This document shows, in pieces, positions 2,489 through 7,999 of a stretch of 64,000 bases of DNA. The notes below the pieces were generated by a model. It had not been told where the DNA came from and made no database searches. It saw only the letters and a list, made by a program, of their open reading frames with translations. Position 1 is the first letter of the stretch, and every line of letters begins with the position of its first letter. Source of the DNA: Glycomyces terrestris (GTDB taxonomy: Bacteria > Actinomycetota > Actinomycetes > Mycobacteriales > Micromonosporaceae); assembly GCF_003933745.1 (NCBI RefSeq), contig NZ_RSEB01000007.1:124001-188000 (forward strand). Reading direction: 5' to 3'. The translations under genes were made by a program, and so were the position numbers.

Positions 2489-3283
2489 CTATTTCTTCTC
2501 GGCCTGCTCCAGGCCCTTGTTGTCCTCGCGCTTGGCCTTGCCCTGGTTCGCGACGGCGGCGGCCGCGGCGGCGGCGGCCTCGGGGTCGAGGTAGGCGCCG
2601 CCGGCGGTGACGGGCTTGAGGGTCTTCTCGTCGAGCTCGTAGAGCAGCGGCATGCCCGTGGGGATGTTCAGGCCCACGATCGCCTCGTCGCTGATGCCGT
2701 CGAGGTGCTTGATGAGGGCGCGCAGCGAGTTGCCGTGCGCGGCCACGAGCACGGTCTGCCCGGTCCGCAGGTCGGGCACGATCCCGTCGTACCAGTAGGG
2801 GAGCATCCGCTCGATGACGTCCTTGAGGCACTCGGACGAGGGGCTGACCTCGGGCGCGAGGGACGCGTAGCGGTCGTCGCCGTCCTGGGAGAACTCCGAG
2901 CCGGGCTCGATCGGCGGCGGCGGCACGTCGAAGGAGCGGCGCCAGATCATGAACTGCTCCTCGCCGAACTCGGCGAGCGTCTGGGCCTTGTCCTTGCCCT
3001 GGAGGGCGCCGTAGTGGCGCTCGTTCAGGCGCCAGGAGCGCTTGACCGGGATCCAGGACCGTGCGGCCTCGTTCAGCGCCAGCTCCGCGGTGTTGATGGC
3101 GCGGCGCAGCAGCGAGGTGTGGACGACGTCGGGCAGCAGCCCGGCCTCGGCGAGCAGCCGCCCGCCCCGGCGGGCCTCCTCCTCGCCGGAGGGCGACAGC
3201 TTCGCGTCGACCCAGCCGGTGAACAGGTTCTTGGCGTTCCATTCGCTTTCGCCGTGGCGAAGCAGCACGAGAGTGTAGGTCAT
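2489..3283 (-). CDS. gpmA: 2,3-bisphosphoglycerate-dependent phosphoglycerate mutase
   Basis: Interconverts 3- and 2-phosphoglycerate in glycolysis and gluconeogenesis, in the cytosol. The family start [16 protein letters not shown] fixes the ATG at 3283, although the reading frame stays open upstream. The R-H-G motif has catalytic H10, [11 protein letters not shown] carries the catalytic Glu, and [10 protein letters not shown] the second His. The product is 264 residues, about 15 longer than usual. The extra residues are an Ala run and a Lys-rich tail at the C-terminus, probably flexible. The neighbouring senX3-regX3 matches mycobacterial order; the gene upstream does not (caspase-kinase instead of the ybjN side). 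Confidence 0.95.
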
Positions 3284-3500
3284 GCCCCCATACTGCCGCC
3301 TCGCCGCGCGGGCGGCCCCCCGGTCGGCGCGAAGGTGTGGCGGCCGTCGCCTCTCGACGAGCATCTCGGCATCACCGTGCCTCGCTGCCGCGAACCAAGC
3401 CGAAGGCGCGGCGGAAGAATTGAGCATCGTCCAGAATCCCGGTGCGACAGCGCAGGGCGCATTGAAACTCGAACTCGCAATCTCGAGCTTGTCATGCGGC

Positions 3501-3681
3501 TCAGGAGCCACCCCAGTTCTCAATACCGTTGACGGTTGTGGTGATCACTTCGCAGACTCGATTCACGCTCGTGATATGAAACTTGACGTCCGACACGTTG
3601 ACGAAGACCTGATAAGTGCCCTTCTGGCCGTTATGCCGCCGCACTGTATGCCCAAACCGCTTCTGAAGGAGCTTGTCCAGA
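3501..3681 (-). other. Out-of-frame continuation of the caspase-kinase gene (probable frameshift)
   Basis: Downstream of about 3681 the +1 frame of the minus strand gives protein-like text: LDKLLQKRFGHTVRRHNG, then GTYQVFVNVSDVKFHITSV, closing at a TGA at 3503-3501. The annotated frame instead ends in the low-quality tail GQAPSEAVWAYSAAA at 3631. Skipping one base after the AAC-AAG codons at 3687-3682 joins the two as REQINK-LDKLLQKRFG, with no stop in between. This suggests a one-base insertion, two-base deletion or sequencing error. The intact protein would be about 748 residues. Confidence 0.6.
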
Positions 3682-5748
3682 CTTGTTGATCTGCTCGCGC
3701 GCCTTCTTGCCTGTTTTGAATGACGGCACCAGCATGTTCTGCGTCATCGAGAACTCGAGTTCCACCTCCGCGATCCCTCGCGTGGACACGTGCTTGAACC
3801 GGCCGATGACCTCGACCTGCTTAGACATGTTGGTGGTCCACATCTTGTCGGTATCGGCCTCGTACTTGCCGAGACCGGCATATGCGTGTCCGACCCTCCG
3901 CCAGAAGTCGTCCTCCGGTACGTCCTCAGAGTCGCTCGCGAGCTGGATGAACATCTCAGCCTTCCGCAACGGTGTGAGGAAATCAGTGACCGTCTGCGGG
4001 CGCTCCGAAGGCTCTTTCGAGCTGGCTTGCTCGTACATTTCCAGCAGAGGCTCCGATGCACGGTCGTCTACCCAGTTGGTGAGCGTGTGGGTGAGCTTCT
4101 GGATGTTCCTCGCGGGACTCGCCGGCGAAGGGTCTTCTCCGACGATCAGAAAGAACATCAATTGGGCGAGGCTGTAAACATCAACGGTCATACTGCGGGC
4201 AGCCGAGGTGTTGTGGGCGTACAGCTGCTCTGGAGCCGCGTAATTGAGGACGCCTCCGACGCCTTCTCCCGCGGTCATCGTCATGGTACGATTTGTCTCG
4301 TGGTACGCCAGGTCGAAGTCGGTCAGGTACGGTGTGAGACTCCCCTCCGAATCGCGTTCGAGAATGATGTTCTCGGGTTTGATGTCGCGATGGAGGACGC
4401 CCTGTGAATGGGCGTATTGGACCGTCTCGCATATTTCGATCATCAGGCGCAGCACGATCTCGGCATTGCCTTCCTTCTCGATGTACGCCCTGCGCAGATT
4501 ATCGCCCGGGATATACTGCATTAGGAAGCCGAATGGGGCTTTTGTCATCTCGTAGACTTGGACAATGCGCGGGTGGTCAAGCTTGCGCATACTGGCGTAT
4601 CCGTTGGAGAACCGGCGGACCTTTACGCCGAGGTGGAGCTCATTGCCGTGGAAGATCTTCAGGGCTTTAAGTTGGCCTGTCCCGTTCTCAACGGCCCACA
4701 CGTTCCCGAATGCGCCGTCGCCGATTTTGAACTTGACCTTGCCGAACCGGTTGTCCTCCCCGACGCTGATGTCGGACAGATGCTTCCTAAAGACCAACAA
4801 GCGGTCGTTGAGCTCACTCCAGTCCGAGTGCGAACGGATGTCAGGGCTGCTGCGCTCGGTATCCTCGAACCAGTTCGCCACGGCCTCAAGTTCGCTCGCG
4901 CATCGTTTCGAGCCGCCGGCAAGCCGGGTGCCGCGGTCGGTGAGCTCAGTGAATTCCAGATTGTGGTAGTGGTCCACGAGGCGCTGCGCCTTCGCAATGA
5001 TCTTGGCCAGCTCGCTCTTCTCGATGGGGCGACCTTGCCGAGGCTCAAATCCTCTGCCGAGAATGACAGTTCCCGCTACGTCGCCCTTGAAAACGGGCGT
5101 TTGCGCCCCTTTGGGCAGGGCAGCCGCGATGTACTCGTAGACCCCCATGAGCGTGACGTCGCCGTCCCAGTTCACCGCGTCTCCGAGGAGCGCATCTATC
5201 AACCTGGTGGTGAATACGCCACGGCTGTTCTCCTCGAGCGCCAGCTCCTCAGGACGGCATGCGGCAAGCACGCACCGACTCTCGTTGACGGCTTGAATTT
5301 CACGCTCGATGTCAGAGGGTGAGAGTGGGCGGCTGTTCGTCCACGTGAACGCGGAGCCTGCGTGGCAGCAGTCGAGGATTGACACGACGTGGTCGAAGAC
5401 CAGGCTAGCGGATTCCATGACCTGGGCAAGGTGGGCCAAGGAGATCCCCGGGTCGAAATTCTCCGCGTCGTGCGTGACCAGATGGCCGGCCTGGCCAATC
5501 ACCTGGCCGTGTCCAGCGAAGTAGAAGAGAAGCGTGCTTCCTTCTCCGTAGTGCTCCTCGGCGTAGGCGGTCCGGTAGAGCTCCTTAAGAATTTCGCTGC
5601 GCGTGGCGTCGCCATCGAGTATGAGTACGCTCTCGAAGTCGTATTGCTCGAGTGAAAGGCAATCCGCTACGTCGCTTGCGTCATTGACGCAGCCGGTCAA
5701 AAGCGCCTCGGGATACGAATCGATGCCGATGATGATGGCTTTGTTCAA
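3631..5748 (-). CDS. Caspase-like protease fused to Ser/Thr protein kinase
   Basis: 705 residues from a TTG at 5748 (AGGAG 5 bases upstream). Residues 1-235 are a C14-type caspase-like domain: strand AIIIGIDSYP, catalytic H80 in FYFAGHGQ and C128 in ILDCCHAGS. Residues 240-330 are a helical linker. Residues 336-595 are a Hanks-type kinase with G-loop GDGAFG (343-348), K364, HRDIKPEN (D455) and APEQ. The usual DFG reads DFD (477-479), keeping the metal-binding Asp. Residues 600-705 match no domain I recognise, and the 3' end looks frameshifted. No membrane segment or signal peptide is seen. GC is visibly lower than in neighbours, and the gene interrupts the mshA-ybjN/gpmA block, so it was probably acquired. 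A role in regulated self-killing, defence or stress signalling is inference; substrates are unknown. Confidence 0.88.
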   Translation of the reverse strand: MNKAIIIGIDSYPEALLTGCVNDASDVADCLSLEQYDFESVLILDGDATRSEILKELYRTAYAEEHYGEGSTLLFYFAGHGQVIGQAGHLVTHDAENFDPGISLAHLAQVMESASLVFDHVVSILDCCHAGSAFTWTNSRPLSPSDIEREIQAVNESRCVLAACRPEELALEENSRGVFTTRLIDALLGDAVNWDGDVTLMGVYEYIAAALPKGAQTPVFKGDVAGTVILGRGFEPRQGRPIEKSELAKIIAKAQRLVDHYHNLEFTELTDRGTRLAGGSKRCASELEAVANWFEDTERSSPDIRSHSDWSELNDRLLVFRKHLSDISVGEDNRFGKVKFKIGDGAFGNVWAVENGTGQLKALKIFHGNELHLGVKVRRFSNGYASMRKLDHPRIVQVYEMTKAPFGFLMQYIPGDNLRRAYIEKEGNAEIVLRLMIEICETVQYAHSQGVLHRDIKPENIILERDSEGSLTPYLTDFDLAYHETNRTMTMTAGEGVGGVLNYAAPEQLYAHNTSAARSMTVDVYSLAQLMFFLIVGEDPSPASPARNIQKLTHTLTNWVDDRASEPLLEMYEQASSKEPSERPQTVTDFLTPLRKAEMFIQLASDSEDVPEDDFWRRVGHAYAGLGKYEADTDKMWTTNMSKQVEVIGRFKHVSTRGIAEVELEFSMTQNMLVPSFKTGKKAREQINKSGQAPSEAVWAYSAAA

Positions 5749-6224
5749 GGTTCTCCTAGGGGATTTCTGTGGAGATGAGGGGATTCCTTCTTAGGGGTAC
5801 GATCGGAATTCGTCCGCGAGGCGAATTCCATTCAGTCTAGCCTACGGGAATGTAGTCGGGGAGATGGAAGGGTTAGATAATTGGACCCTGCTTCACTTCA
5901 ATGCAACTCCACTCTCTTGAGCCACAGAAATCCATTTCCGTTGTAGGAGGCGGCGGGAGTAGACCTCCAGCCCAATCCAGAGCCCGATCGCCGCTTACCT
6001 CCCAAAACGATGCTCGGCCGTATTGGTCTGGCGTCTCCGGCCTTGTAAGGCGGGGCGGCCAGAGCCGCAGTCCTCGTGACGACTGAGGCCCCGGCGTACG
6101 TCTGCGGGCGGCTTCGGAGGAAAGGCCTCGTGCAGCTTGCGGGCTATGACCCTGCACAGGCAGCCCTCTGGCTTGCCAGATAAGTTGGCGGACCTTGCCG
6201 CATATGTGATTCGGCCTGGAGCCC
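5749..6224. other. Gene-free, lower-GC upstream region of the caspase-kinase gene
   Basis: 476 bases with no convincing gene on either strand. Short reading frames here have no ribosome site and no family-like text. The stretch is lower in GC than the chromosome, like the gene it precedes. It contains a perfect inverted repeat at 5805-5829 and presumably the promoter of the caspase-kinase gene. No integrase, tRNA or direct repeats marking an insertion were found. Confidence 0.6.
5805..5829. repeat. Inverted repeat upstream of caspase-kinase gene
   Basis: Eight-base perfect arms GGAATTCG (5805-5812) and CGAATTCC (5822-5829) with a 9-base spacer, 57 bases ahead of the TTG start at 5748. Position and symmetry suit an operator or a hairpin in the 5' leader. 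No repressor gene is adjacent. Confidence 0.45.
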
Positions 6225-6701
6225 TCAGTCGTCTGGGCGCAGGTGCTCGAACGCGGCGAGGTTCCGCGTGGACTCGCCGCGGGCGAGGCGCCAGCGCCAC
6301 TCGTCCTGGATGGAGGACTTGAAGCCGAGTTCGAGGATGACGTTGAACGTCTCGTCGGCGGCCGCGAGGACCTGGCCGAGGACGCGGTCGAGCTCGTCGG
6401 CGCCGATCGCGGCGAAGGGGAGGCGCCCGACGAGGTGGATGTCGTCGCTGCCGTCCACGGCGAAGGACACGGCGTACAGCTTCCCGTTGCGGCGCAGGAG
6501 CTCCGCCCACACGGCCTCGTGGTTCTCCTCGGGCCGCCGGGCCACGAACGCCTCCACGCGCAGGGCGTGGTCCTCGATCACGAGGCCGCACTCGGTGGTG
6601 AGCTTGCGCTGCCCGGGGAGGCTGACGACCACGGAGCGCGGCGTGTCCAGGCGGTAGTCGGCGCCGATCTCGTCGAGGGCGGCCGTGAGTCGCTCGATCA
6701 C
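6225..6701 (-). CDS. YbjN domain-containing protein
   Basis: 158 residues, starting at GTG 6701 so that it overlaps the mshA stop as GTGA. The text ([49 protein letters not shown]) matches the actinobacterial YbjN/type III secretion chaperone-like fold, and in mycobacteria the same gene follows mshA (Rv0487). No catalytic residues are known for the family. The four-base overlap implies translational coupling with the mycothiol glycosyltransferase, but a direct role in mycothiol synthesis is unproven. Confidence 0.85.
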
Positions 6702-7999
6702 CGGTTCAGCGTAATCGCCTGGGAGCGGCGCAGGACGGTGCGCCGGTAGGCGGCGCCGAGCCCTTCGGCGGTGGCCTGCCAGGAGAACAGCGCGGCGTGG
6801 GACCGGGCGCCGGCGGCGAGGCGCTCGCGCAGCGCCCCGTCGCGCATGAGGCGGCCGATCGCGTCGGCCCAGTCGCCGGCGCGGTGGGAGTCGACGAGGA
6901 GCCCGGAGGCGCCGTCGGCGACGGCGGTGGTCAGCCCGCCGACCTTCGCGGCGAGGACGGGCGTGCCGGCGGCCTGCGCCTCGAGGGCCACGAGCCCGAA
7001 CGACTCGTTGTAGCTGGGGACGGCGACGGCGTCGGCGGCCCGGTAGACCTGCGCGAGCGCCTCGCCCGAGCGCGGGCTGCGCCACTGGACGCGGTCGCCG
7101 AGGCCGAGTTCCCCGGCGAGCTTCGGCAGCCAGTACAGGTCGGTGTTCGAGGGCCCGCCGACGAAGACGGGGACGATGCGCTCGGCGAGCGCCGGGTCGG
7201 TCTCGCGCAGGCGGGCGAGGCCGCGCAGGAGCACGTCGGGGGCCTTGGCCGGCTGGATGCGGCCGACGAACGCGACGACGAGCGCGTCCTGGGGGAGCCC
7301 GAGGGCCTGCCGGGCCGCGTACCGGTCCCCGGGCCGGAACACGCCGAGGTCGACGCCGGGGTGGACGACTTCGACGCGGCGGGCGTCGGCCGCGTAGTAG
7401 TGCTGGAGCTCGGCGGCCTCGGCGGCGGTGTTGGCGATGAGGAGGTCGGCCTCGGTGGTGATCTGCTCCTCGCCGACGACGCGCCCGATCGGCTCGGGGC
7501 TGTCGCCCTCGGCGAGCTGCGCGTTCTTCACCTTCGCGAGCGTGTGGAAGGTCTGCACGAGCGGGACGTTCCACCGCTCGGAGGCCACCCACGCGGCCTG
7601 GCCGCTGAGCCAGTAGTGGGCGTGGATGAGGTCGTAGTGCCCGGGCCGGTTGTGGGCCTCGGCGCGCAGGAGCCCGCCGGTGAACGCGCACAGCTGCGTC
7701 GGCAGGTCGTTCTTGGACAGGCCCTCGAAGGGCCCGGCGGGCAGGTGGTGGACGAGGACGCCGGGCGCGGCCTCGACGGTGGGGGGCTCCTCGGAGCTGG
7801 TGGCGCGGGTGAAGATCTCGACCTCGACGCCGGCGCGCGCGAGCTCGCGCGCGGTGTTGAGCACGTACACGTTCATGCCGCCGGCGTCGCCGGTGCCGGG
7901 CTGCGCGAGCGGAGAGGTGTGGACCGAGACCATCGCGACCCTGCGGACCGCCTGCTTGCGGCATCGGGCCCGGAACACCGGTGTGCGCCGTTGATTCAC
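6698..7999 (-). CDS. mshA: D-inositol-3-phosphate glycosyltransferase MshA
   Basis: First committed enzyme of mycothiol synthesis: transfers GlcNAc from UDP-GlcNAc to 1D-myo-inositol 3-phosphate in the cytosol. 433 residues, GT4 fold. The N-domain has [20 protein letters not shown] and HAHYWLSG. The C-domain has [12 protein letters not shown] and the nucleotide-sugar EX7E motif (E332, E340) in ESFGLVALE. The GTG start at 7999 follows AGGAGAGG. The 15-20 basic residues before [10 protein letters not shown] are typical of actinobacterial MshA. It is coupled to the ybjN gene and diverges from the tetR gene. Its presence places the organism in Actinomycetia. Confidence 0.95.

Follow-up and report, generated by a model that had tools for sequence, protein, structure and literature searches.

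Among the described systems in which bacterial caspases take part in biological conflict, the EACC1-caspase pair is the nearest to the gene analyzed here, a caspase-kinase fusion of Glycomyces terrestris that lies in a 64,000-nucleotide stretch of contig NZ_RSEB01000007.1 (assembly GCF_003933745.1, positions 124,001 to 188,000; hereafter the window). EACC1-caspase is presented in PMC7159879 as a two-gene conflict system, prevalent in actinobacteria, with the caspase N-terminal and a signaling part C-terminal, and with up to 50 C-terminal partners, "signaling enzymes" among them. Those enzymes may include kinases, in which case the type of fusion would be known in outline. For EACC1-type caspases, auto-proteolytic release of the C-terminal effector has been proposed (Kaur et al. 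2020, PMC7159879 section 33). By its sequence, the Glycomyces terrestris gene encodes a single chain of caspase, linker and kinase, behind which comes a C-terminal domain (CTD) peculiar to the family. Our preferred but tentative reading, to which we give a probability of about 0.42, is that the family may represent a one-protein sensor-kinase-protease conflict switch, moving alone between actinobacteria as a single gene.

The caspase part matches the NCBIfam model NF047832 ("caspase, EACC1-associated type") at 75.4 bits, and the scores of four proteins, 64.5-89.5, were all under the cut-off of 140 (0/4 over). EACC1 itself (PF19953) was found over its cut-off in 10 of 12 fusion genomes and beside the fusion in none of the 12, the nearest copy on the same contig being more than 0.6 Mb away. 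On these two counts, membership of an EACC1 system was ruled out. Such a fusion family is not described in the accessible portions of PMC3501461, PMC10907252, PMC8195603 and PMC7159879, the word kinase is absent from PMC8283722, and no description of the solitary form, the kinase signature or the chaperone-fold tail was found in full-text searches, figures and supplements aside. In a coarse motif test of 83 other loci, chosen by caspase motifs and a few by kinase, no open reading frame (ORF) carried both motif sets (0/83).

Domains and active sites of the fusion protein

A caspase-like protease and a Ser/Thr kinase in one protein had been proposed in a sequence-only reading of this DNA, and the Pfam searches agree, since both domains lie in a single minus-strand ORF: PF00656 (Peptidase_C14) over residues 2-192 (67 bits against a gathering threshold of 21.4, E 2.6e-18) and PF00069 over residues 339-585 (109.7 bits against 31.7, E 2.2e-31). 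The residues named there as catalytic, H80, C128, K364, D455 and D477, were correctly chosen, and none of them varies among the 14 family members aligned. Mean identity is lower in the linker (0.50) and the CTD (0.47), against 0.64 and 0.62 in the other two domains. The linker gave 0 matches in Pfam; in the modeled G. sambucus orthologue it forms three long helices with a predicted local distance difference test score (pLDDT) of mostly 92-97. The CTD had been overlooked.

The kinase had been called a nearly complete Hanks kinase, and in part it is, with the K, HRD, N and D residues present in 14/14 members, but two textbook motifs are changed throughout. The alphaC Glu position holds Gly383 in 14/14 members, compared with Glu in 21 of 25 comparison kinases taken from the same searches, and the third DFG residue is Asp479 in 14/14, compared with Gly in 25/25. 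The family also has a constant E370, six residues past the lysine, a candidate to stand in for the alphaC Glu; of the 25 comparison kinases, 23 have a residue at that position, and in none of these is it Glu. The Gly and DFD occur in three inspected members of a distant clade as well. It seems that the kinase forms a separate subclass with a constant departure from the two motifs.

The CTD was found in the caspase-kinase fusion family only, and in the Streptomycetaceae loci the caspase and kinase were confirmed beside it. Structure prediction assigns it the fold of type III secretion chaperones and YbjN: TY-chaperone entries fill 12 of the first 14 VIA-align rows, and the order of helices and strands agrees. 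In sequence, Pfam searches on 14 members gave no YbjN or chaperone match, and a search of the PDB with the CTD gave a single match at E 0.47. BFVD with the CTD gave none at or below 0.001. Descent of the CTD from the neighboring ybjN was ruled out by hhalign against a Glycomyces YbjN alignment (probability 0.3). For the whole model, the 50 matches listed by Foldseek are all protein-kinase entries. The CTD was sought in the phylum of a cyanobacterium (G770; 0/146) and in that of a Caldilineaceae metagenome-assembled genome (MAG; G771; 0/151), two empty results that carry no weight, there being no positive control.

The Glycomyces terrestris copy reads as frameshifted in the CTD, unless the break is a sequencing or assembly error. 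The gene had been taken to end at 3501 with 748 residues; that span, 3501-5748, comprises 2248 bases, which is no multiple of three, and joins two frames, the ORF itself stopping at 3631. The CTD profile gives one hit in each of two frames of the window genome, the first over model positions 2-90 (E 1.5e-22) and the second over 81-146 (E 3.7e-18), and the closest relatives extend approximately 50-58 residues beyond the point where the window copy departs from the family sequence. Twelve of 13 close orthologues run in a single frame to the end, and the other, L085, is cut by a contig end. Since tail and body are almost equally close to the G. sambucus gene (64.3% identity over 56 codons and 65.5% over 686), the break would be recent, or else such an error. 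With its predicted sensor domain broken by the frameshift, the window copy has probably lost or changed its activity, errors of assembly aside.

It could be argued from this break inside the CTD that the window strain holds a decaying remnant whose function the frameshift ended, and a distant family member of a Streptomycetaceae species (L199 4810-8379) is indeed cut by a transposase gene inside the kinase part, with the caspase, both kinase halves and the CTD still recognizable. We regard decay as improbable: neither the body nor the tail of the window copy has any other stop, the two are equally conserved, and decay in one strain would leave the family unexplained.

Distribution, landing site and transfer

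A scan of 84,980 species genomes with patterns for two caspase motifs, which miss more distant relatives, gave 275 stretches encoding a relative, and the best 80 of these correspond to 77 loci. Within the best 80, 13 loci are related to the window gene over both caspase and kinase, with 48-65% identity; six are from Streptomyces and one each from Glycomyces, Actinomadura, Bailinhaonella, Catenuloplanes, Rhodoglobus (a MAG), Arthrobacter and Mycolicibacterium. At E <= 1e-40, a relative was present in 9 of 354 genomes of the host family, the window's own included, and in 2 of 396 of a phylum sample, both already among the nine; a further presence count gave 7/345. Among 21 other Glycomyces genomes only G. 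sambucus has the gene, on a contig other than that of its ybjN, and it is absent from the remaining 20, including the two whose YbjN is most like that of the window strain. In G. sambucus, the orthologue and a DUF6338 membrane protein gene lie between two DDE_5 transposase genes (L051 2831-14260). A large protein encoded near that orthologue has sub-threshold NB-ARC and AAA matches.

A lower guanine-plus-cytosine (GC) content had been noticed in the sequence-only reading; it is 59.1% in the gene, against 72.3% in the rest of the window, and at every one of the 14 loci, counting the window, the gene is poorer in GC than its flanks. In a gene tree of 19 rows (G024 left out), the two Glycomyces genes are sisters (100/100), and two Streptomyces genes cluster with those of Actinomadura and Bailinhaonella (98/95), which points to transfer between families. 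The restriction to one of 21 congeners, the low GC and the mixing of families in the tree all support horizontal acquisition, as had been suggested; a pattern in which all relatives carry the gene at this locus with the same GC did not occur. Two Streptomyces pairs have ratios of nonsynonymous to synonymous substitution rates (dN/dS) of 0.079 and 0.087; in the Glycomyces gene pair the synonymous sites are saturated.

The site itself proved different from the conserved housekeeping block with intact flanks that had been supposed. The interval from ybjN to gpmA measures 71-178 bp in 8 of the 21 congeners, 622 bp in one and 1.7-10.7 kb in 12, so that it holds other DNA in 13 of them; the interval (window 3284-6224; loci L053-L066) is a variable cargo site across Glycomyces, and a single insertion splitting a conserved block was thereby ruled out. 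The fusion gene is the sole gene carried by the segment at approximately 3354-6224, and the seven congener intervals with which it was compared become homologous again some 70 bp short of gpmA. Five genes of the larger intervals were tested by Pfam, the others being read as sequence only; the matches were to DUF234 (over cut-off), HSP70 and an ABC transporter ATPase, another gene gave HATPase_c, HSP90 below cut-off, and the fifth had no match. A provisional "ESX-like" label for the cargo was dropped, there being no Pfam match.

Among the 25 largest clusters of 241 neighbor ORFs from the 13 loci, no neighbor family is common to more than three loci, and DUF6338 occurs in two. The rest of the families in common, transposases and regulators for example, are of a general kind, and the orthologues' neighbors include msrA, smc, tuf, hisE and aspS. 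Three Streptomyces loci (L077, that of Streptomyces nymphaeiformis, L078 and L088) have surroundings in common, and with this trio counted as one place the 13 orthologues occupy about eleven places. Carriage of the whole fusion by plasmids or phages was ruled out for the collections searched, as coverage of 80% of the query was reached by none of the 58 plasmid and none of the 32 phage records that matched; 19 IMG/VR matches span parts of residues 1-251 only, and no DNA match was found on plasmids. Plasmids do encode stand-alone caspases (Rhizobium, E. coli, Klebsiella, Providencia and others) that match the caspase part at about 33-36%, and in two of the records the match also falls under a TIR-domain annotation.

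The absence of an adjacent partner gene, as first described, stood up: the two upstream ORFs tested have no Pfam match, and no hydrophobic same-strand ORF of at least 45 codons lies upstream of the window gene. Upstream of the 13 orthologues there are two such hydrophobic ORFs, one inside smc (L085) and one barely over the threshold (L084). The TTG start is preceded by a ribosome-binding-site-like AGGAGA. The perfect inverted repeat upstream of it (Table 1) was equaled in length in 1 of 500 base shuffles of 300 nt and does not recur among the 13 orthologues, of which L077 and L083 carry different inverted repeats at least 10 long. A promoter and terminator scan found none, and aligning 14 upstream stretches brought out no common element. 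The Streptomyces trio has a GC-rich hairpin-like sequence approximately 25-55 bases before the start codon, ahead of the ribosome-binding site, with changes apparently on both arms by eye; it could be a terminator of msrA or serve translational control.

Table 1. Coordinates of the fusion gene, its parts and its surroundings in the window
Feature	Position	Strand	Remarks
gpmA, block neighbor	2489..3283	-	
Acquired segment	3354..6224	.	no counterpart in seven congener intervals compared
CTD, second part	3504..3680	-	59 codons, different frame; stop 3501-3503
Caspase-linker-kinase-CTD gene, window strain's form	3631..5748	-	705 codons, TTG start
Frame-change zone	3680..3690	-	judged against close orthologues, 12/13 full-length in one frame
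CTD, first part	3685..3948	-	residues 601-688; same frame as kinase
Hanks-type kinase	3949..4746	-	residues 335-600; K364, HRD455, N460, DFD477-479; Gly383 at alphaC Glu position
Linker	4747..5052	-	residues 233-334; three long helices in G. sambucus orthologue model
Caspase (Peptidase_C14) domain	5053..5748	-	residues 1-232; H80 and C128
Perfect 12-nt inverted repeat	5761..5933 (arms 5761-5772, 5922-5933)	-	inner arm ends just before ribosome-binding site
ybjN, other neighbor	6225..6713	-	start approximate

A possible signaling route and its alternatives

The order of the domains, the constant active sites, the faster change of the linker and CTD and the lack of a recurrent partner suggest a signal that enters at the CTD and travels by way of the kinase to the protease. 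Type III secretion chaperones and YbjN have peptides or unfolded stretches of partner proteins as their ligands, and it can be envisioned that the CTD senses a protein ligand, e.g. a phage or stress-exposed protein. Ligand sensing would alter the state of the intervening kinase, and the kinase, or an autophosphorylation passed through the helical linker, would license the caspase. The licensed caspase would then cleave cell proteins at basic residues, on their C-terminal side, in the manner of metacaspases, and growth would stop. Phosphorylation-gated proteolysis of this kind is possible, and a role as a cell-death or defense switch may be put forth from the constant catalytic residues of both enzymes together with the identity of the closest relatives, which are conflict-system caspases and defense kinases. 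In a stronger form, the protein would be a closed immune or suicide circuit that spreads as a solitary gene, with the CTD as chaperone-fold sensor, the caspase, and a kinase belonging to a separate subclass (no alphaC Glu, DFD); this we regard as somewhat more doubtful.

Two observations weigh against this reading. No clear defense island was recognized around the orthologues, judged by sequence and partly by Pfam rather than by a full defense scan. Alpha/beta-hydrolase genes occur in 3 of the 13 loci: one (L086 12538-13332) immediately follows the Arthrobacter orthologue, and in two loci they are 6-8 kb off. In VMAP conflict systems, caspases are described as having hydrolases of this type for company.

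The order of events could also be reversed, with the caspase as the trigger: it would cut its own chain in the hinge and free a kinase-CTD effector that phosphorylates cell proteins. The sub-threshold likeness of the caspase to the EACC1-associated type and the effector release proposed for such caspases (PMC7159879) are consistent with this, as is the hinge arginine after the caspase, R237, kept in 13 of 14 members. However, the kinase and CTD here stay coupled to the caspase where the C-terminal part of EACC1 systems is highly variable, the EACC1 partner is absent beside the fusion, and the linker is modeled as a stable helical unit. A proteolysis-gated kinase seems the less likely order.

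The modeled chaperone-like fold of the CTD would also suit an actinobacterial regulator of stress or development that monitors protein quality by sensing unfolded protein and has no conflict role, and several host genera (Streptomyces, Actinomadura, Glycomyces) are filamentous. Arthrobacter and Mycolicibacterium, also hosts, form no lasting mycelium, and the patchy presence, different sites, low GC and horizontal transfer fit accessory cargo better. Such a regulator is hardly probable in our view, even with YbjN-type proteins tied to stress and aggregation (PMC3575483).

Comparison with described systems

If the conflict-switch reading is true, sensing, phosphorylation and caspase cleavage would be united in one polypeptide, where animals use several death-signaling proteins, and the fusion would be a bacterial single-chain parallel to the receptor-kinase-caspase signaling of animal cell death. 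It would also offer a small portable object for direct tests of the order of kinase and protease, with a kinase subclass that is off two textbook motifs.

Each part of the protein has its own described counterparts. Like bacterial metacaspases and orthocaspases, it has a Peptidase_C14 domain with a His-Cys dyad, to which it adds the kinase and the CTD; among solved structures, the sequence search found a single relative, Metacaspase-4 (6w8s, E 0.00037). The best PADLOC matches of the kinase domain are to PD-T4-6 (128.5 bits, a model with no PADLOC cut-off) and MADS6 (120.3 bits), and the NCBIfam model for MADS6 scores 107.7 bits against a cut-off of 460. PD-T4-6 is a single-gene system (PMC11514479), and the likeness to these defense kinases is confined to the kinase domain rather than the whole protein. 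The CTD model agrees in its secondary-structure order with the TY-chaperone superfamily (YbjN, DR1245, AmyR and class I type III secretion chaperones), but unlike these the CTD is fused to two enzymes, and sequence similarity to them was not detected. With EACC1-caspase the fusion shares the succession of an N-terminal caspase and a C-terminal signaling part; it differs in that the kinase and CTD are constant in place of a highly variable C-terminal part, and, if the proposed switch is true, it would work without the EACC1 partner of the described actinobacterial system.
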